From: Polyangiaceae bacterium
Lineage (GTDB): Bacteria; Myxococcota_A; Polyangia; Polyangiales; Polyangiaceae
Direction of reading: 5' to 3'
NCBI GenBank assembly: GCA_023150915.1
Contig: JAKLKA010000014.1
Location: 1-64,000, forward strand
DNA length: 64,000 nucleotides
Shown here: positions 5,534-19,383 of the stretch, one piece after another
Numbering within the stretch: position 1 is the first letter of the stretch
Layout: the number at the start of each line of letters is the position of its first letter
Notes under the pieces: model-generated
What the model was told of the DNA's origin: nothing
What the model saw: the letters and a program-made list of their open reading frames with translations, nothing else
Database searches by the model: none
Made by a program: the position numbers and the translations under genes

Positions 5534-6337
5534 ATGCACGTCGGTGGCGCTCCCGGTCTGGCTCCCGAGCCGCGACCCTTGCCCTTGCCGCCCGAGCCGC
5601 GGCCAGCCGTGGGCTCGTTCGAGGCCGAGCTCGAGCGGGTGCGCGCCGACGTCGAGGTCCGCCGCACCGCGCTCTCCGGCGACGAGGCCCGGGCTGCCAT
5701 CGAGCGGGCGTGGACCGCGCGCTTCGGGGCCCCCCCCAGCCGGGGAACGCTGGGGGTGCTGGTGGCCCAGTGGGCCCACGAGACGGGCCGCGGCGCGTCG
5801 ATGTACAACTTCAACTTCGGAGGCATCAAAGGGGTCGGGCCGTCGGGGCTGTCGGTCGTGCAGCGCACGCGTGAGGGCTCGGGCTCGACCGAGCGCGTGA
5901 TCCACGATCGGTTCCGGGCCTACCGGACGGCAGAAGAGGGCGCGTCGGACTACCTTGCGCTGCTCGAGAAACGCTACGGCGCGGCGCTCGATGGGGCGAA
6001 GAACGGGGACCCCGAGGCCTTCGTGCGGGGGCTCAGGGCCCGCGGCTACTTCACCGGTGACGCCGGCGCTTACACGCGCTCGGTGAGCAAGCTGTCGGAG
6101 CTGGCCGCGACCCGCGGCTTCGACGCGCTGGGCGGGGCCACGGGCGTGGCGCCCACGCGCCTCGAGGCGCCCGCGGGCGCAGCGGCGCACACCGAGCTGC
6201 CATCGGGCTTCGAACCACCCATCCCCGAAGATACGCCGTTCGTCAGCGCGTTGGCGCTGGCGGACGAGATCGGACGGAGCGCCGTCCGCATCTTGTCGGA
6301 TCGGCGCGACCGCGACGACGAGGTCGGCCGGGGATAG
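5534..6337 (+). CDS. FlgJ-type peptidoglycan hydrolase (glucosaminidase domain)
   Basis: 267 residues. A proline-rich N-terminus (~1-25) has no signal peptide. The glucosaminidase domain spans ~45-200: LVAQWAHETGRGASMYNFNFGGIKG matches the catalytic-Glu and NLFGIK-like core of the FlgJ C-terminal domain (split here: WAHETGRG, then FNFGGIKG). It also has FRAYRTAEEGASDYLALL and YFTGDAGAYTRSV. It would open the peptidoglycan for rod passage. The rod-capping half of FlgJ is a separate gene at 22812-23114, so the classical two-domain FlgJ is split here. Lack of a signal peptide suggests export through the flagellar apparatus, as for FlgJ (inference). Confidence 0.8.
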   Translation: MHVGGAPGLAPEPRPLPLPPEPRPAVGSFEAELERVRADVEVRRTALSGDEARAAIERAWTARFGAPPSRGTLGVLVAQWAHETGRGASMYNFNFGGIKGVGPSGLSVVQRTREGSGSTERVIHDRFRAYRTAEEGASDYLALLEKRYGAALDGAKNGDPEAFVRGLRARGYFTGDAGAYTRSVSKLSELAATRGFDALGGATGVAPTRLEAPAGAAAHTELPSGFEPPIPEDTPFVSALALADEIGRSAVRILSDRRDRDDEVGRG

Positions 6338-6379: not shown

Positions 6380-7246
6380 ATGTCCGACGTCATCATCAAC
6401 GGAACACGCATCGGCGAGGGGGCTCCCTGCTACGTGGTGGCCGAAATTGGCATCAACCACAACGGAGATCTCGAGACGGCGCGGCGCCTGATCGACGTGG
6501 CCGGTATCGCCGGGTGTCAGGCCGTGAAGTTCCAGAAGCGCACCGTGGACGTGGTGTACGGCAAAGAAGAGCTCGAGCGCCCGCGCGAGAGCCCCTTCGG
6601 CAAGACCAACGGCGACTTGAAGCGCGGGCTCGAGTTCGGGCTCGGCCAGTACTGGGACGTTCACCGCTATTGCCGCGACAAGCACCTGACCTGGTTCGCG
6701 TCGTGCTGGGACGAGCACAGCGTCGACTTCATCGAGCAGTTCAACCCGCCGGCGTACAAGATCGCCTCGGCGTGCCTGACCGACGCGAACCTCTTGGCCC
6801 ATCACCGCCGCACCGGCCGCCCGCTGATCCTCTCGACCGGCATGAGCACTCAAGAGCAGGTCGACCGAGCCGTGGAGCTGCTCGGGACCGAGAACCTGGT
6901 CCTCTTGCACACCACCAGCGCCTACCCTGCGAAGCTGGACGATCTGAACCTGCGGATGATCCCCAAGATGGCCGAGCGTTATGGCGTGCCGGTGGGTTAC
7001 TCGGGTCACGAGGTGGGCCTGGCGACTTCGCTGGCCGCCGTGGCCCTGGGTGCGTGCATGATCGAGCGCCACATCACCCTGGACCGCGCGATGTGGGGCA
7101 GCGACCAGGCTGCCAGCGTCGAGCCGCAGGGCCTGATGAAGCTCGTGCGCGACATTCGCGCCATCGAGCGTGCGCTGGGGGACGGCGTGAAGACCGTCAC
7201 CGCCGACGAAGTACCCATCATGAACAAACTGCGCAGGGTTGCCTGA
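6380..7246 (+). CDS. neuB: NeuB-family nonulosonate synthase without SAF domain
   Basis: Condenses phosphoenolpyruvate with an N-acyl-hexosamine or hexose to give a nine-carbon nonulosonic acid. 288 residues forming the TIM barrel: VAEIGINHNGD (~18-28), AVKFQKRTVD (~48-57), SAYPAKLDDLNL, VGYSGHEVGL and IERHITLDRAMWGSDQAAS near the end. Family members with the C-terminal antifreeze-like (SAF) domain are usually ~335-350 residues; this one stops where SAF would begin. AGGAGG-like GGAGGAAC precedes the ATG. Exact substrate (sialic, legionaminic, pseudaminic or Kdn type) cannot be told from sequence; flagellin glycosylation is inferred from Maf and the flagellar context. Confidence 0.88.
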   Translation: MSDVIINGTRIGEGAPCYVVAEIGINHNGDLETARRLIDVAGIAGCQAVKFQKRTVDVVYGKEELERPRESPFGKTNGDLKRGLEFGLGQYWDVHRYCRDKHLTWFASCWDEHSVDFIEQFNPPAYKIASACLTDANLLAHHRRTGRPLILSTGMSTQEQVDRAVELLGTENLVLLHTTSAYPAKLDDLNLRMIPKMAERYGVPVGYSGHEVGLATSLAAVALGACMIERHITLDRAMWGSDQAASVEPQGLMKLVRDIRAIERALGDGVKTVTADEVPIMNKLRRVA

Positions 7247-7253
7247 GGCATTC

Positions 7254-7997
7254 ATGAGCTCGCTCGAGATCTTGGCGCTGATTCCGGCCCGCGGCGGGTC
7301 GAAGGGGATCCCACGCAAGAACCTGCTGGCCATCGGCGGCAAGCCGCTGATCGTGCACTCCATCGAGACCGCACTGGCGTCGCGCCGCATCACGCGCACC
7401 ATCGTCTCGACCGACGACCCAGAGATTGCCGACGTGGCCGCAGCGCACGGCGCCGAAGTTCCGTTTCGACGCCCCGCCGAGCACGCCACCGACGAGGCCA
7501 CCGACCTGCAGGTGTTCCGGCATGCCCTGGAATGGCTGGCGGCCGAGGGCTACCGGCCCGACCTGGTGGTGCACCTGCGGCCCACCCAGCCCGCGCGCGA
7601 CGCAGGCGTGGTGGACCGGGCCATCGACGAGCTGGCGAAACGCCCCGAAGCGGACTCGCTGCGTTCGGTCGAGCTGGCCGAGCACACGCCGTACAAGATG
7701 TACTCGCTCGACGGCGGTCGGCTCAGGCCCGTGATGGAAGTGCCGGGCATGCCCGAGGCGCACAACATGCCGCGGCAGAAGCTGCCGCTGGTCTACCGCG
7801 GCAACGGCTACGTCGACGTGCTCCGCCCGCGGGTCATCGAGCAAGACTCGATGAACGGAGCGGTGATCTTGCCGTTCGTGATCTTCGAGCGAGTCTTGGA
7901 TCTGGACTACCCCGATCAGATCCCCTCGCTCGAGCGCGCCCTGCAGGGGTCACGGCGCCCCCCATCGACCACCGTGCGCCTGCGCCACCCCGCGTGA
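7254..7997 (+). CDS. neuA: Acylneuraminate (nonulosonate) cytidylyltransferase
   Basis: Activates the nonulosonic acid with CTP to a CMP-sugar, the donor for glycosyltransferases. 247 residues with the nucleotide-binding signature LIPARGGSKGIPRKNL near residue 7, LRPTQPARD (~105) and PLVYRGNGYVDV. The ATG at 7254 is preferred to the in-frame TTG at 7239: GAGG lies 7 nt before the ATG, and this start puts the signature at the normal distance. It begins 7 nt after neuB. LegF/PseF-type specificity is equally possible. Confidence 0.87.
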   Translation: MSSLEILALIPARGGSKGIPRKNLLAIGGKPLIVHSIETALASRRITRTIVSTDDPEIADVAAAHGAEVPFRRPAEHATDEATDLQVFRHALEWLAAEGYRPDLVVHLRPTQPARDAGVVDRAIDELAKRPEADSLRSVELAEHTPYKMYSLDGGRLRPVMEVPGMPEAHNMPRQKLPLVYRGNGYVDVLRPRVIEQDSMNGAVILPFVIFERVLDLDYPDQIPSLERALQGSRRPPSTTVRLRHPA

Positions 7998-8008: not shown

Positions 8009-9088
8009 ATGATCGCACACTCGAACGTCGAAGTTCTGGCTCTGGACGTCGACGGCGTGCTCACCGACGGCCGGGTGGCCCTGGGCCCAACCGGAGAGGA
8101 GACGAAGGGGATCGCCTTCCGCGATCTGGACGCGCTGACCGTGGCCCGGCGGGCGGGCCTGCGCATCGCGCTGGTCACCGGCGAAGAGGGGCCGCTGGTC
8201 GACGTGATCGCGCGGCGCACCGGGGCCGAGCACGTGATCCGCGGGGCGAAGGACAAGGCCGCGGCGCTGCGCGAGCTGGCGGCCGAAATGCATGCCGACC
8301 TGGCGCGTATGTGCTTCGTGGGCGACGCCGACCGAGACGCCATCGCGTTCGACAGCGTGGGGCTGGCGCTCGCTCCAGCGGATGCCTCGTCTCGGGCGCG
8401 CGAGCGCGCTCACCGCGTGCTGTCGCGGTCGGGCGGGGCGGGCGCCGTGGCCGAGGCGGTGGAGATCGTCCTTCGCGCCGTGGGCGGCGATTCGGCGCGG
8501 ATCGCTCGGGAGCGCGGGCTGGCCCTGGCGCTGGCCGAGAGCATCGAGGCGCATCAGCGCTTGGCCGCCGAAGGGCCGGCCGCGCTTTCCGAGATCGCAC
8601 GGGCGCTCGCGGCGGCGATCGGCATGGGGAAGAAGGCACTGTTCTGCGGCAACGGGGGCAGCGCCGCCGACTCGCAGCACGTTGCCGCCGAGCTGGTGGG
8701 CCGATTCGCTCGCGAGCGCGACCCCTGGCCCGCCATCGCGCTCACCACCGACACCTCGATCTTGACCGCGGTCGGCAACGACTGGAGCTTCGACGAGGTG
8801 TTTTCGCGCCAGGTCCGTGGCCTCGCGCGGCCGGGTGACGTCGTGGCGGGGATCAGCACCAGCGGAAACTCGCCCAACGTCGTTCGCGCCCTTCAGGCCG
8901 CCCGGGAGCGCGGGGCAACCGCCATAGCGTTCACCGGCGCACGGGGCGGTCCGGTTGCCGATGCGGCCGACCTGGTGTTCCGGGCGCCGTCGAGCTCGAC
9001 CCCACGCATTCAAGAGCTGCACATCTTGGCTTGGCACGCGATCTGCGAGGTCGTGGAAGCCGAGCTCGCTCGGAGGCCAGAAGCATGA
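8009..9088 (+). CDS. Fusion of KdsC-like HAD phosphatase and GmhA-like SIS isomerase
   Basis: 359 residues. Residues ~1-165 are a KdsC-type HAD phosphatase: ALDVDGVLTDGRV gives the DxDG nucleophile motif, LVTGE the second motif, KDKAAAL the Lys and GDADRDAIAF the Asp pair. Residues ~175-355 are a GmhA-type SIS domain: CGNGGSAADSQHVAAELVGRF, GISTSGNSPNVVRAL and the C-terminal QELHILAWHAICE. Normally these are two enzymes, one dephosphorylating Kdo-8-P or a nonulosonate-9-P and one isomerising sedoheptulose-7-P. Position after neuB and neuA suggests the HAD half removes phosphate from a nonulosonate-9-phosphate. The SIS half's substrate is open. The long upstream open frame before 8009 overlaps neuA and is not coding. 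Confidence 0.85.
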   Translation: MIAHSNVEVLALDVDGVLTDGRVALGPTGEETKGIAFRDLDALTVARRAGLRIALVTGEEGPLVDVIARRTGAEHVIRGAKDKAAALRELAAEMHADLARMCFVGDADRDAIAFDSVGLALAPADASSRARERAHRVLSRSGGAGAVAEAVEIVLRAVGGDSARIARERGLALALAESIEAHQRLAAEGPAALSEIARALAAAIGMGKKALFCGNGGSAADSQHVAAELVGRFARERDPWPAIALTTDTSILTAVGNDWSFDEVFSRQVRGLARPGDVVAGISTSGNSPNVVRALQAARERGATAIAFTGARGGPVADAADLVFRAPSSSTPRIQELHILAWHAICEVVEAELARRPEA

Positions 9089-9354
9089 TCCAGCTCTCGC
9101 GTCTGAACGGCGGCGTGATCGCCATCAACCCCGATCTGGTGACGTGGATAGAGGTCACGCCCGACACCACCATCGAGTTTTTGAACGGCGACCGCATCAT
9201 GGTGCGCGAATCGCTGGACGAGGTGATGGACCGCGTCGTGAGCTTCCGCCGAGCCGTCAGCCACCCTCTGGGCTCTACCAGCGCGCACCCGCCTTCGAAG
9301 CACGTGGTGCACGAGCTGGCGTGTGCGGAAGAAGCGGAGGTGCACGGTGGATAA
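9085..9354 (+). CDS. flbD: FlbD-family small flagellar protein
   Basis: 89 residues starting MIQLSRLNGGVIAINPDL, followed by VTPDTTIEFLNGDRIMVRESLDEVMDRV, the full FlbD-family core. The ATG overlaps the stop of the fusion gene by 4 nt. The family is small, widespread beside motA or flgE in many phyla, and of unclear biochemical role. It is not the Caulobacter NtrC-type FlbD. The C-terminal ~25 residues are unlike the family and may be disordered. Confidence 0.85.
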   Translation: MIQLSRLNGGVIAINPDLVTWIEVTPDTTIEFLNGDRIMVRESLDEVMDRVVSFRRAVSHPLGSTSAHPPSKHVVHELACAEEAEVHGG

Positions 9355-10156
9355 GGCGTCCCTCGTCGGTCTGATCCTGGGGCTGCTGGCCATTTTCGGT
9401 GGAAACGTCCTCGAAGGTGGCTCGATGTCCCAGGTCGTCAACCCCATCGCGTTCATCATCGTCGCGGGCGGAACGGTCGGCGCCACCATGCTCCAGTTTC
9501 CGATGAGCACGTTCATCCGTGCCATCAAGAGCTTCAAGAGCGTGATGAGCCCGCCGAAGGGCCGAGCGCCGCAGCTGATCGAAGAGATCATCGGCTACGC
9601 CACCACGGCGCGCCGCGACGGGATTCTCGCTCTCGAGTCCGTGGCCCCCAAGGCGACCGACCCGTTTCTGGCGCGTGCGCTGATGCTGGCGGTGGACGGG
9701 GCGGACAGCAACCAGATGAAGCAGACCCTGGAGTCGACCATCGAGCACGCGGAAGAGCAGGGGGAAGACGTCGCGAAGGTGTTCGAGGCCATCGGTGGCT
9801 ACGCGCCCACGGTGGGCATCATCGGCGCCGTGCTCGGCCTGATCCAGGTGATGCAGAACCTCTCCGACATCGAGAAGGTCGGGCACGGCATCGCGTCGGC
9901 GTTCGTGGCCACCATCTACGGCGTGGCCATCGCCAACCTGATCGCCCTGCCGTGCGGCGGAAAGATGAAAGTCCGGACCCGCGACGAGGTGGCGACGTTG
10001 ACCCTGATCCTGGAAGGGGCGCTGGGCATTCAGCAAGGGGTGAACCCCATGGTGCTGCGCGAGCGGCTCGAGGGCCTCATGCCGCACGACGAGAAGCACG
10101 CCGCGGGCAAAGAAGGCGCCGCGGCCGGGGCTGCCGCCCGAAGCGCCACGGCGTGA
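9347..10156 (+). CDS. motA: Flagellar motor stator protein MotA
   Basis: Stator subunit, inner membrane, forms the ion channel with MotB. 269 residues with four hydrophobic segments: ~5-22, 30-50, ~150-170 (GYAPTVGIIGAVLGLIQVM, with the conserved Pro) and ~180-205. The cytoplasmic loop carries the charged torque region. The GTG at 9347 follows GCGGAGG and overlaps flbD by 8 nt. An upstream alternative start adds eight basic residues with no ribosome site. Confidence 0.92.
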   Translation: MDKASLVGLILGLLAIFGGNVLEGGSMSQVVNPIAFIIVAGGTVGATMLQFPMSTFIRAIKSFKSVMSPPKGRAPQLIEEIIGYATTARRDGILALESVAPKATDPFLARALMLAVDGADSNQMKQTLESTIEHAEEQGEDVAKVFEAIGGYAPTVGIIGAVLGLIQVMQNLSDIEKVGHGIASAFVATIYGVAIANLIALPCGGKMKVRTRDEVATLTLILEGALGIQQGVNPMVLRERLEGLMPHDEKHAAGKEGAAAGAAARSATA

Positions 10157-10166
10157 GCGCTGGGTC

Positions 10167-10982
10167 ATGGCCAGGAAGAAGAAGCATCCCGAGCACGTCA
10201 ATCACGAGCGTTGGCTGATCAGCTACGCCGATTTCATCACCTTGCTATTTGCCTTCTTCGTCGTGATGTTCGCCGTGTCGCAGGTCGACACCAAGCAGGT
10301 GGGCCGATTCACCGAATCGTTCACCGACGCCCTCGAGTGGCAGGTGTTCGACACCAAAGGGGGCAAGGGCTTCATGCCCGCCGACAAACGCATGCAGCCC
10401 ATGGTCGGGCAGAGCACGAAGCCAGTGGGGCGGGCCGTGCTGGGGCGCTCGCCGCAGGTGCAAGTCGATGAATCCGCTCTGGCGCGCGAGCTGAAGCAGA
10501 AGCTGAAGACGGTGCCCGAGCTCAAAGACCTGAAGGTCATCGAGTACAAGGGCGAGCTCATCCTGCGGCTGCCCGAGCAGCTGCTCTTCCAGAGCGGCGA
10601 GACCCGCGTCAACGACGATGGGCAAGAGGCCCTCTCAGCGATTGCGCAGTCGCTCAAGGGGCGCAACCTCGAGATCCGGGTCGAGGGGCACACCGACCGA
10701 GTGCCGATCCGTACCATCCGCTACCAGTCCAACTGGGAGCTGTCGGCCGGGCGTTCGACTTCGGTGGTGCGGTACTTCGTCGAGGCCTGCGGGATGGACC
10801 CCGAACAGTTCTCGGCGGCCGGCTACGGGGAGTACCGGCCGGTGGCCTCGAACGACACGGTGGACGGGCGCGCCCAGAACCGGCGGGTGGACGTGGTCCT
10901 GGTGACCGAGGCCACCCAGGGCGTGGTGCCCCCCGCCGGCACTGCCGAAACGGCAGCTCCGGCCTCAAGCGCCGGGCATTAG
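10167..10982 (+). CDS. motB: Flagellar motor stator protein MotB
   Basis: 271 residues. The single transmembrane helix SYADFITLLFAFFVVMFAVS (~18-37) carries the channel Asp. A plug/linker follows, then an OmpA-type peptidoglycan-binding domain at ~145-250 with VEGHTDRVPI and NWELSAGRSTSVVRYF, and the C-terminal NRRVDVVLV. It anchors the stator to the cell wall. The Tyr/Leu-rich helix does not settle H+ versus Na+ use. A sigma-28 promoter for the next gene is embedded in its last codons. Confidence 0.93.
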   Translation: MARKKKHPEHVNHERWLISYADFITLLFAFFVVMFAVSQVDTKQVGRFTESFTDALEWQVFDTKGGKGFMPADKRMQPMVGQSTKPVGRAVLGRSPQVQVDESALARELKQKLKTVPELKDLKVIEYKGELILRLPEQLLFQSGETRVNDDGQEALSAIAQSLKGRNLEIRVEGHTDRVPIRTIRYQSNWELSAGRSTSVVRYFVEACGMDPEQFSAAGYGEYRPVASNDTVDGRAQNRRVDVVLVTEATQGVVPPAGTAETAAPASSAGH

Positions 10983-15682: not shown

Positions 15683-16507
15683 TCAACCGATCAGGCCGAA
15701 GGCCAGCTGCGGCAGCTGGTTGGCCTGGGCCAAGACCGAGATGCCGGCCTGGGTCAGCACCTGGTTGCGCGACATCTTCGCGGTCTCGTCGGCCACGTCC
15801 ACGTCGCGGATGCGCGAGTTGGCGCCGCTCAGGTTCAGGCGCATGGTCTGGATGTTGTTGGTGGCCACCTGCAGGCGGTTCATCGCCGAGCCGAACTTCG
15901 AGCGGGCGCTCGAGGTGGTGGCAATGGCGGTGTCGATGCGGCCCAGGGCGGTCAGCGACGACGTGGCGCCGCTGCCCGACAGCACCGTGGTGGTGGCCAA
16001 GAGCGTGGTGAAGCCGACCCCGCCGAAGGTGACCGAGATCTTGTCTGACGAGGTGTTGTTCAGACCCACCTGGAAGGTGACCGTGCTGGCGGTGGCGTTC
16101 ACCAGCTTGCTGCCGTTGAACTTGGCCGAGTCCTGAATGCGGGTGATCTCGGACTTGAGCGACGAGAACTCGGTGTTGATGTAGCCGCGGTCGGTCGAGG
16201 TCAAACCGCCGTTCGACGCCTGCATGGCCAGCTCGCGCATGCGGCCGAGCACCTCGTGCACCTCGCCGAGGGCGCCTTCCGCCGTCTGCGCCATGCTGAT
16301 GCCGTCGCCCGCGTTGCGTTCGGCCACGGTGTAGGACCGGATTTGCGACTTCATGCTCTCGCTGATGGCGAGGCCTGCCGCGTCGTCCGATGCGCTGTTG
16401 ACCCGGTACCCGCTGGAGAGCTTGGCGAAGCTCGCCTGCAGGGCCCGCTGATTGCGACTGACGTTCTTCTGCGCTTCGAGAGAGGCTACGTTGGTCTGGA
16501 TCTTCAT
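15683..16507 (-). CDS. fliC: Flagellin (short, D0-D1 type), copy 1
   Basis: 274 residues from ATG 16507 (MKIQTNVASLEAQKN). The N-terminal D0/D1 has LSSGYRVNSASDDAAGLAIS and the C-terminal D1/D0 has SRIRDVDVADETAKMSRNQV and VLAQANQLPQLAFGLIG. The central part is short (~100 residues, Ser/Thr-rich), so outer D2/D3 domains are absent. Ser/Thr patches such as TVLSGSGATSSL are candidate glycosylation positions for the Maf enzyme. AAGGAG precedes the start inside a leader with a hairpin. The upstream 13-codon extension of the frame covers the leader and is not coding. Confidence 0.95.
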   Translation of the reverse strand: MKIQTNVASLEAQKNVSRNQRALQASFAKLSSGYRVNSASDDAAGLAISESMKSQIRSYTVAERNAGDGISMAQTAEGALGEVHEVLGRMRELAMQASNGGLTSTDRGYINTEFSSLKSEITRIQDSAKFNGSKLVNATASTVTFQVGLNNTSSDKISVTFGGVGFTTLLATTTVLSGSGATSSLTALGRIDTAIATTSSARSKFGSAMNRLQVATNNIQTMRLNLSGANSRIRDVDVADETAKMSRNQVLTQAGISVLAQANQLPQLAFGLIG

Positions 16508-16521
16508 GACAGGGGCTCCTT

Positions 16522-16547
16522 CTTGGAGGTCGCCGCGACCCTCCAAG
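16522..16547 (-). promoter_or_regulatory. Flagellin leader hairpin, candidate CsrA site
   Basis: In the flagellin leader CTTGGAGGGTCGC pairs with GCGACCTCCAAG (one bulged G). The stem carries a GGA, and a second GGA lies in the Shine-Dalgarno AAGGAG just downstream. Paired GGA motifs, one over the ribosome site, are how CsrA represses flagellin in CsrA-FliW systems; csrA and fliW are both in the window. Binding itself is inferred. Confidence 0.5.
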
Positions 16548-16621: not shown

Positions 16622-17458
16622 TCAGCCACCGCCGACCAGGCTCAGGGCCAGCTGCGGCAGCTGGTTGGCCTGGGCCAAGACCGCCACGCCGGCCTGCGAA
16701 AGGACCTGATTTCTTGCCAGCACCGCGGTCTCTTCGGCCACGTCGACGTCCCGGATGCGCGAGTTGGCGGCCGACAGGTTGAGCCGCATGGTCTGGATCG
16801 ACGAGGTGACCACCTCGAGGCGGTTCATCGCGGCGCCGTACCGGGCGCGGCTGGTCGAGATGATGCCCAGCGCCGAGTCGATGCGGCCCAGGGCGGTGAG
16901 CGACGAGGTGGTGCCCGCGCCGCTGAGCGCCGTGGTGGTCGAGAGCAGGGTCGTCAGGCCCAGGCCGCCAAAGGTCACCGAGAGCTGGTCGGCGGCGGTG
17001 TTGTTCAGCCCCACCTGGAACTTGATGGTCGAGGCCGTCTGCGAGAGCAGCTGCTTGCCGTTGAACTTGCTCGAGGCCTGAATGCGCGTCATCTCGGCCT
17101 GAAGCGCGGTGAACTCGGTGTTCAGGTAGCCGCGATCGGTCGAGGTCATCGAGCCGTTCGAGCCCTGCATGGCGAGCTCGCGCATGCGTCCCAAGATAGA
17201 GTGCATCTCACCTAGCGCGGCCTCGGCGGTCTGCGTCATGCTGATCGCGTCGTTCGCGTTTCGCTCGGCCACCACATAAGAGCGGATCTGCGAGCGCATG
17301 CTCTCGCTGATGGCGAGCCCCGCCGCGTCGTCCGAAGCGTTGTTGATCCGGAAGCCGCTGGACAGCCGGTTGAAGCTCTTCTGAAGCGCGCCTTGGGAGC
17401 GATGCAGGTTCTTCTGCGTCTCGAGGGACGCCACGTTGGTTTGAGTCACAATCGGCAT
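16622..17458 (-). CDS. Flagellin (short), copy 2
   Basis: 278 residues, close paralogue of copy 1. It has LSSGFRINNASDDAAGLAIS, SRIRDVDVAEETAVLARNQV and ends VLAQANQLPQLALSLVGGG. The central region is equally short. It starts 13 nt inside the end of the Maf gene with AAGGAG upstream. I see no sigma-28 site directly before it, so it may be co-transcribed with csrA-maf and translated by coupling. A different promoter class from copy 1 would make it an early or minor (proximal) flagellin; that is inference. Confidence 0.94.
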   Translation of the reverse strand: MPIVTQTNVASLETQKNLHRSQGALQKSFNRLSSGFRINNASDDAAGLAISESMRSQIRSYVVAERNANDAISMTQTAEAALGEMHSILGRMRELAMQGSNGSMTSTDRGYLNTEFTALQAEMTRIQASSKFNGKQLLSQTASTIKFQVGLNNTAADQLSVTFGGLGLTTLLSTTTALSGAGTTSSLTALGRIDSALGIISTSRARYGAAMNRLEVVTSSIQTMRLNLSAANSRIRDVDVAEETAVLARNQVLSQAGVAVLAQANQLPQLALSLVGGG

Positions 17459-19383
17459 GGGTCGGGTTCTCCTTGGGTCGTGGTCGGCTCGAGGTGTGCG
17501 GGGGCGCCGCCTCGAGCAAGGTCGGTGAGTCGGTCGGCGATTCTTCGGGCGGCACCTTCGATGGCGCGGGTGAGGGCGACCTCGCGGCGGACGGCCGTCA
17601 CCGCGCTTCGGTGCGAGTCTTCCCCGTGGCTCCCGTCGTCCTCGCGCATGGCCGCTTCGATGTCGGCGAACGCCCAGGCGTTGACCATGGGCGCAGCGCT
17701 CGCGGCAGCCTTCAGCTCGATCTCGTGAGTCGACAGGCGCTCGAACGCCTGGGTCACTGCGTCCGGGCTATCGCCCTCGATGGCCACCAGCGCGCGTTTC
17801 GCCGCGCCGCGGGTGCGCCGAGCACAGTCCCGCACCCGGCGGACTCGCTCGCGCTCGTCCCGTGCCCACGCAGAGAGCGCCTCGGGTGCCACGCGCCGGC
17901 CGGTGGTGCGTGCCTTCTGGCACAGCTCGTCCACCGTGGGGCCGCGCCCCTCGAGCGACGCCAGCACCCCGGCCAACGGACGCTCGTCGAAGCCGTCGAT
18001 CCGCGAGCCCCCCTCGGTGGCGTTCACCAGGGCCACGTGCGGTGCGAGCTGTCGCAGGCTGTGGGCCGCGCCCGAGAGCCACGCCCGCGGACCGGCGAAG
18101 CTCTGTCCGGATGGCACCGTTCCCACGCCGCCCCAGGCCGGCACTTCTTCCAGGCGCTCTTCCGCGTGCAGCGGCGGATCACCCGCCGAGCGGGTCCCGC
18201 GCGAGGTGGGGCACCAGTCGATGCGGATCTGGCCATCGGCGCAGACCTCGACGCGCGATGCATCGAACGGACTGCCCTCGGCGTGGGTGCGGTTTCCGGT
18301 GTACGCCAGGTCTTGCCCCACCAGCACGATCGGCGAACAGCCGAAGGCGTAGGCTAGCGAGAACGCCAGCGTGGACACGCTGCCCGAGACCGCCAGGCCG
18401 GGCAGGCCGGTGAGCCGCTCGAGGGGCTCGCAGAGCTCGGGGATCCCCTCCCACACCGGAAACAGCGGCCCCTTGCCGGTACGGAACGTCCTGGGGTGGG
18501 CAGAGAGGCTGAAGGCCCGGATGGACCGATCGACGAACGGGACCGAGCCGACCAGCGGCGACACGTCGACCGACTCGATGCAGCAGAAGATCTGCGGCTC
18601 TATCCCGTGACGGGCCAGCACGCGTCCGCTCGAGTTCGTCGAGAAGACCACCCCCTTGGCGGTGGCCTCGCGGAGCAGCTCGGCGTTCTTGGCGAGCGAC
18701 GGCCCCGCGCCCACGATGAACGCCGGGACCCCCACCAGCTGGTTCCGGAGTGCGATCAGCGGCACTTCGTCCTTTAGGCTGCCGATGTTGGCAAACAGGT
18801 CCTCTATCCAGGTGCGGGCGCGCTGTTGATGGGTGTTGCGGTTGATGCCGGTGCGGTGCACCAGCTCCGAGACCAGCCGCTCGAGCTCGGCATGCTCGTC
18901 CGGAAAGCGCTCCCGGTAGCCCGGAGTACGCACCAGGGTCGCGCCCACTTCGTCGCGGGCCAGCGCTGCCCAGATCTGGGACAGGTCCCGCAGCGAGCAG
19001 ATGAGCTCGGTGTTGCCCAGATCCGTTGGGCCGCGCTCGAGCACTGCGCGCGCCACGCGCGCGTCGGGCTCGTAGACCACCACCGGGCCATCGAATGCGT
19101 GCTGCACCGAGCGCACGGTGTCGCCGGTGCCCAGGCCGAACACCACCACCGGCGCGCGGCCGGCATTCTGGCAGGTCTGCATCAGGCCCCAGTCGTCGGC
19201 GGGCGCCCCGAGCAGCGCGCCGTCGACCGAGATCACGTCGATCCCCGGCTCGGCCTCGACGACCTCGGCAGAGGCTGCCTGGTGGATCAGGTCCACCGTC
19301 AGCGCCGAGACCCCGAGCGCGCTCAGGTTCTCGCTCAAGAAGGCGGCGCGAAGCTCGGCGTCGGGCCAGTCGAGGTTGCCCAT
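17446..19383 (-). CDS. maf: Maf-type motility accessory glycosyltransferase
   Basis: 645 residues. Matches the Maf (motility accessory factor) family, which transfers nonulosonic acids or Kdo from CMP donors onto flagellin Ser/Thr in the cytoplasm. Visible marks: GLGTGDTVRSVQHAF (~83), FIVGAGPSLAKNAELL (~215), a GT29-like central domain with VSGSVSTLAFSLAYAFGCSPIVLVGQDLAY split by short gaps, then a helical C-terminus. Directly upstream of and overlapping flagellin copy 2, downstream of csrA. Together with neuB and neuA it gives a full donor-to-flagellin route. Confidence 0.85.
   Translation of the reverse strand: MGNLDWPDAELRAAFLSENLSALGVSALTVDLIHQAASAEVVEAEPGIDVISVDGALLGAPADDWGLMQTCQNAGRAPVVVFGLGTGDTVRSVQHAFDGPVVVYEPDARVARAVLERGPTDLGNTELICSLRDLSQIWAALARDEVGATLVRTPGYRERFPDEHAELERLVSELVHRTGINRNTHQQRARTWIEDLFANIGSLKDEVPLIALRNQLVGVPAFIVGAGPSLAKNAELLREATAKGVVFSTNSSGRVLARHGIEPQIFCCIESVDVSPLVGSVPFVDRSIRAFSLSAHPRTFRTGKGPLFPVWEGIPELCEPLERLTGLPGLAVSGSVSTLAFSLAYAFGCSPIVLVGQDLAYTGNRTHAEGSPFDASRVEVCADGQIRIDWCPTSRGTRSAGDPPLHAEERLEEVPAWGGVGTVPSGQSFAGPRAWLSGAAHSLRQLAPHVALVNATEGGSRIDGFDERPLAGVLASLEGRGPTVDELCQKARTTGRRVAPEALSAWARDERERVRRVRDCARRTRGAAKRALVAIEGDSPDAVTQAFERLSTHEIELKAAASAAPMVNAWAFADIEAAMREDDGSHGEDSHRSAVTAVRREVALTRAIEGAARRIADRLTDLARGGAPAHLEPTTTQGEPDPCRL

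Follow-up and report, generated by a model that had tools for sequence, protein, structure and literature searches.

Bacterial 3-deoxy-ulosonic acids are mainly sugars of eight carbons (Kdo) or nine carbons (sialic, pseudaminic and legionaminic acids and Kdn). Kdo is synthesized by KdsD, KdsA, KdsC and KdsB, that is, by a SIS isomerase, a PEP-condensing synthase, a phosphatase of the KdsC fold and a CMP transferase, and in Escherichia coli the genes of the isomerase (kdsD) and the HAD phosphatase (kdsC) are adjacent. The window analysed here, a stretch of 64,000 nucleotides from a Polyangiaceae bacterium, encodes the same four kinds of enzyme, which would act in the same order. Unlike the Kdo pathway, however, it has a GmhA-type isomerase, a NeuB-type synthase lacking the SAF domain and a NeuA/PseF-type transferase; the isomerase and the phosphatase are one protein and the genes lie in a flagellar operon. 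As kdsD and kdsC are neighbours in E. coli, the fusion joins an equivalent pair.

Other described systems share parts of this arrangement. In Leptospira, NeuB is fused to a phosphatase domain and Neu5Ac is the proposed product (PMC3438082). This system, with the animal-like route through Neu5Ac-9-phosphate, resembles the present locus in the use of NeuB by way of a phosphorylated ulosonate and in the fused phosphatase domain, but there the phosphatase is joined to NeuB itself, no isomerase is involved and Neu5Ac is proposed. Murine CMP-sialic acid synthetase also carries a KdsC-like C-terminal domain (3ewi, a structure match). The sedoheptulose-7-phosphate (S7P) isomerase GmhA (2xbl, 2i22, 1x92) is similar to the SIS half in fold, zinc ligands, S7P contacts and sequence (about 40-50% identity), whereas here it shares one protein with a phosphatase and is encoded in a NeuB operon of a genome without HldE. 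The Kdn-9-phosphate phosphatase BT1713 (3e81, 4hgo) has the same KdsC-type HAD fold and a Glu at the Glu56 position, whereas in the fusions the Lys67 position is Arg or Leu and the score is well below the family cut-off. Each domain of the fusion is already known, as is the joining of a phosphatase to NeuB in Leptospira (PMC3438082). In the open-access literature we found no description of a KdsC-GmhA fusion or of GmhA feeding NeuB, which is not proof of absence, and nothing relevant on a C10 or 11-carbon flagellin sugar or on GmhA with nonulosonic acids.

The fusion protein and its flagellar operon

The initial annotation described a KdsC-like phosphatase fused to a complete GmhA-like isomerase in one protein of 359 residues, and this holds, as the gene is a single uninterrupted reading frame with neither a stop nor a frameshift between the halves. 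In profile searches residues 1-158 matched KdsC/YrbI phosphatases (TIGR01670, E=8.8e-28) and residues 174-354 matched GmhA with a complete SIS domain (PRK13936, E=2.4e-62; TIGR00441, E=5.9e-57). The AlphaFold2 model (mean pLDDT 85) has both folds in the expected order, joined by a helix of residues 161-205, and fold comparison gave Z of about 24-26 over 160-170 residues for the HAD half against KdsC/YrbI structures and about 26 over 175-190 residues for the SIS half against GmhA structures. Between the window fusion and that of a second genome of the same genus (L001), dN/dS was 0.08 overall, 0.10 in the HAD half, 0.05 in the SIS half and 0.29 in the linker, so that purifying selection acts on each half and the gene is real. 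A longer in-frame start at 7532 was rejected, as the extension gains no domain and crosses neuA in another frame. Since the same fusion occurs in further genomes (91% identical within the genus, about 55-68% elsewhere), it is not an assembly artefact.

Table 1. Genes of the sugar and flagellar region of the window
Feature	Coordinates	Strand	Evidence
FlgJ-like muramidase, upstream, same direction	5534..6337	+	PF01832; FlgJ model weak
Short NeuB-family synthase, 288 aa, no SAF domain	6380..7246	+	PF03102 only
NeuA/PseF-like CMP-ulosonate cytidylyltransferase, start TTG 7239 or ATG 7254	7239..7997	+	PF02348, E=4.8e-24
Fusion: KdsC-type HAD phosphatase (aa 1-158), helix 161-205, GmhA-type SIS isomerase (aa 175-354)	8009..9088	+	ORF, Pfam/NCBIfam, invariant catalytic residues, model, dN/dS
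FlbD (coordinates of the stretch translated)	9085..9327	+	PF06289, E=3.6e-22
MotA	9323..10156	+	PRK09109 above cut-off
MotB	10167..10982	+	PF13677 and PF00691
Flagellin	15683..16546	-	Homologous to paired flagellin genes in L001-L003, L020
Flagellin	16622..17458	-	Homologous to paired flagellin genes in L001-L003, L020
Maf-type putative flagellin glycosyltransferase, overlapping flagellin gene	17446..19383	-	PF01973, E=3.5e-29

The fusion gene ends in an ATGA in which its stop codon and the start codon of flbD overlap, and motA and motB come next. Owing to this overlap, translation of the sugar genes is probably coupled to that of the motor genes. The opposite strand holds FliD and FlgL besides the two flagellins and the Maf-type gene, whose PF01973 domain lies beside flagellin in the window as Maf homologues adjoin the flagellins in three relatives (L002, L003, L020). 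The link to the flagellum that had been proposed for the fusion is supported by this operon, the flbD overlap and the nearby flagellin and Maf genes. Pfam/NCBIfam profile searches detected neither an aminotransferase nor an acetyltransferase in the operon, so a non-amino sugar is expected. The transferase matched PseF ahead of KdsB, with 116 bits for the PseF model TIGR03584, under its cut-off.

The active sites of both halves are intact, so the other ground on which the fusion was to be rejected, loss of catalytic residues, fails as well. The zinc ligands of Burkholderia pseudomallei GmhA (H64, E68, Q175, H183) together with D61 and D98 (PMC5705639) correspond to H224, E228, Q335, H343, D221 and D258 of the fusion and are invariant across six aligned fusions, as are most of the S7P contact residues named for Mycobacterium tuberculosis GmhA (PMC7705670). 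The second half, which was earlier taken to imply a heptose or other sugar-phosphate substrate, is in keeping with that view. The HAD motifs DxD, T, K and GDxxxD of the KdsC/YrbI type are likewise complete (D13/D15, T57, K83, D106/D110) and invariant among the fusions. That the SIS half might be a non-catalytic domain like DiaA (2YVA), which has lost the catalytic Glu (PMC7705670), was rejected, as this Glu is retained in the fusion.

All scores stayed below the curated cut-offs, for GmhA (PRK13936, 210 against 276 bits; TIGR00441, 192 against 209 bits), for KdsC (92 against 208 bits; TIGR01670, 97 against 107 bits) and for the Kdn-9-phosphate phosphatase BT1713 (76 against 180 bits), and therefore the substrate of neither half is readable from its name. 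The Arg that follows TG in KdsC is replaced by Glu59, which is invariant in the fusions and stands at the position of BT1713 Glu56, the residue mutated in the Kdn-9-phosphate phosphatase structures 4hgq and 4hgr; E. coli KdsC has Arg there. Judged from the alignment, this replacement argues mildly against Kdo-8-phosphate as the substrate. Lys67 of BT1713 is Arg70 in the window fusion and the position is not conserved among the fusions.

These residues bear on a Kdo pathway for flagellin, in which the SIS half would make arabinose-5-phosphate, NeuB would replace KdsA and the KdsC half would yield Kdo. Its step order is identical, by sequence the HAD half matches KdsC best among PDB entries, and a replacement could be useful in a genome without KdsA and KdsD, but the SIS half matches GmhA with the KdsD model TIGR00393 not among the 25 matches listed, NeuA prefers PseF to KdsB and the KdsC Arg has given way to Glu, and we consider this pathway quite improbable.

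The short NeuB and its partners in other genomes

The synthase encoded upstream of neuA has a complete PF03102 domain (E=2.7e-77), and profile search gave no match to the C-terminal SAF domain; the model aligns only to residues 4-292 of the 348-residue NmNeuB. The SAF domain of NmNeuB supplies Arg314 to the active site of the partner subunit, and structures of the R314 mutant (4ipi, 4ipj) are among the structure matches of the window NeuB. Loss of the SAF domain would leave a more open active site. Homologues with 64-96% identity stand beside isomerase and/or phosphatase genes, and as a KdsC-type phosphatase lies next to almost all related SAF-less NeuBs, phosphorylated intermediates are indicated.

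The search of domain architectures and neighbourhoods proposed for the fusion detected it in seven genomes and placed the SAF-less NeuB in arrangements with and without a SIS isomerase. Besides the window's genome and L001, a MAG of the same genus with a 91% identical fusion, it occurs at about 55-68% identity in four Polyangiales-group genomes (L002, L003, L020, L040) and in a Chloroflexi MAG (L004, 55%), the only one to carry it in a sample of 400 Chloroflexota genomes. When plasmids were searched with the full-length fusion, only partial matches came back. A 608-residue protein encoded between an SDR and the fusion of L004 (L004:8138-9964) had no Pfam/NCBIfam match.

The arrangements fall into five types. 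Type A combines the HAD-SIS fusion with NeuA and the SAF-less NeuB, and the window and L001 have this minimal set. The other five of the seven fusion loci also encode a Gfo/Idh oxidoreductase and/or an SDR, with a TIM-barrel epimerase in three, so the products may differ among loci; a query with the relatives' Gfo/Idh gene, run without a positive control, found no orthologue in the host genome. In type B, NeuA is fused to HAD and the SIS and NeuB genes are separate, in the vicinity of MotA and Maf (the whole cluster in G061; also G094 and G081, whose contigs end in or next to the cluster, with NeuB not seen in G094 and NeuA-HAD not seen in G081). Type C has NeuB, HAD fused to a TPP-dependent enzyme and a separate SIS (L041, L042), type D has NeuA-HAD and NeuB with no SIS, and type E has two transketolase subunits, a class III aminotransferase, an SDR, HAD and NeuB. 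A SIS-type NeuB with a phosphatase and no adjacent isomerase occurs in L006, which counts against the pathway proposed below, although L006 has an intact GmhA elsewhere in its genome. The KdsC domain is in this way swapped among partners, namely GmhA, NeuA and the TPP enzyme here and NeuB in Leptospira.

Several of these loci hold further unusual genes. The type C fusions (L042:10849-13200, L041:6429-8648) join a KdsC-type phosphatase to a full acetolactate-synthase-like TPP enzyme in one reading frame adjoining the SAF-less NeuB and GmhA, and may serve in a two-carbon extension or branching of the sugar. The type E genes, with KdsC-type HAD and SAF-less NeuB, are found on a plasmid of the gammaproteobacterium Methylomagnum (L052:4889-10501) and in L045, L046 and L047, Polyangiales relatives included. 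In Azospirillum thermophilum (L054:9856-10941) a 361-residue 'HAD hydrolase' stands by NeuB, and its first half reads like a degenerate NeuA cytidylyltransferase joined to the phosphatase.

In the SIS tree the NeuB-linked isomerases form three groups (fusion, B and C), with three changes needed, of which well-supported branches force at least two as independent origins, and hence GmhA has been recruited to this NeuB repeatedly. Chance does not readily account for such repeated association with one NeuB. As GmhA is recurrently tied to it, the preferred reading is that the halves serve two steps of a single pathway, and not a nonulosonate route joined to a separate heptose route. The SIS-linked NeuBs also cluster in the NeuB tree (3 changes against 8.6 when shuffled). 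When 12 SIS-type NeuBs were compared with seven from the SIS-less types D and E, the start residue being left out, all ten fixed differences fell within residues 59-84, which read VVY..EEL..PRESPFG.TNGDLKRGLEF in the SIS-type proteins and CVP..Q...TPWG.M.YIDY in types D and E. A rough value of 1e-9 for this clustering assumes independent positions, which they are not. The loop, of low confidence in the model, would cover the substrate, and its difference fits a substrate change, as a correlation that follows phylogeny.

The host genome and the predicted sugar

The host genome, which is 98.8% complete, was searched for the standard pathways. HldE/RfaE and KdsD gave no match over cut-off, and a recognisable KdsA is absent, the two KdsA-like matches (C105, C221) being DAHP synthases. 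With no recognisable KdsA, KdsD or HldE in the genome, the explanation that the halves are relics of LPS Kdo or ADP-heptose synthesis was rejected. The absence of the Kdo and HldE pathways and the tie between the GmhA half and the SAF-less NeuB are new relative to the initial annotation. Close KdsC and GmhA domains were found in the host only in the fusion; the sole other match is a divergent SIS protein on contig C129, in which two of the four zinc ligands are changed by reading of the sequence (E68 to D, Q175 to E). Its cluster (L032:4772-10260) also encodes an HddA-like kinase, an HddC/MurU-like nucleotidyltransferase and a GalE-like protein.

The HddA-like kinase on C129 could suggest that two unrelated steps were fused, the GmhA half for a nucleotide-heptose and the KdsC half for a nonulosonate, and in the tree the nearest isomerase that stands alone, that of L005, does sit with an HddA-like GHMP kinase and a GmhB-like phosphatase. 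But the C129 cluster already includes a SIS gene, the genome has no HldE over cut-off, and GmhA lies repeatedly beside this NeuB in other arrangements where no heptose kinase was found, which makes such a union hardly probable. Among seven searched genomes with NeuB-linked SIS genes, HldE exceeded the cut-off only in G008, beside its second SIS gene, and the search gave only trace matches in L002, L003 and G081.

The fusion, its intact active sites, its gene linkage, its recurrence and the absence of the standard pathways are read from the sequences, and the protein is likely bifunctional and serves a pathway dedicated to an acidic sugar on flagellin, with isomerase, NeuB, phosphatase, NeuA and Maf acting in order. 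This confidence applies to the pathway logic, and we infer all of its chemistry, the order of steps, the length of the sugar and the flagellin target. In the proposed scheme the SIS half would convert a ketose phosphate into an aldose phosphate with zinc, most likely S7P into D-glycero-D-manno-heptose-7-phosphate. The SAF-less NeuB would condense PEP with this aldose phosphate, giving a 3-deoxy-2-ulosonate phosphate, and the HAD half would take the phosphate off this product. NeuA would then activate the ulosonate with CMP and Maf would transfer it onto flagellin.

Should the SIS half be a genuine GmhA, the acceptor of NeuB would be heptose-7-phosphate and the product a C10 3-deoxy-dec-2-ulosonic acid. 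A CMP-activated acid of this kind, made for flagellin from S7P and PEP by four enzymes, is our tentative first choice among three candidate products, Kdn (C9) and Kdo (C8) being the other possible ones, and it agrees with the unusual higher-carbon sugar hinted at in the initial annotation. Isomerases resembling GmhA can use substrates of other chain lengths (LmbN), which counts against the C10 reading. The earlier proposal of a nonulosonate-9-phosphate route as in Kdn synthesis stands for its phosphorylated ulosonate and KdsC-type phosphatase, whereas Kdn itself is just one of the three candidates. In a Kdn pathway NeuB would act on mannose-6-phosphate, the HAD half would be the Kdn-9-phosphate phosphatase and the SIS half would make mannose-6-phosphate from fructose-6-phosphate or have a side role, and Glu59 at the BT1713 Glu56 position and the expected non-amino sugar agree with this. 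However, the Kdn-9-phosphate phosphatase model scores far under its cut-off, a type I mannose-6-phosphate isomerase is present elsewhere in the genome, so that an extra isomerase is unneeded for Kdn, the SIS half shares 40-50% of its residues with true GmhA and retains most of the S7P contacts, and presence of the isomerase tracks the altered NeuB loop. Kdn therefore seems rather unlikely.

A compact operon with a heptose-phosphate-type isomerase, NeuB and a KdsC-type phosphatase predicts either a C10 member of the ulosonic acids or the synthesis of a known member by an unusual route. The loop at residues 59-84 of the SAF-less NeuB offers a marker for finding such pathways. If the C10 prediction is true, the flagellin sugar would be related to Kdo and sialic acid but have ten carbons.
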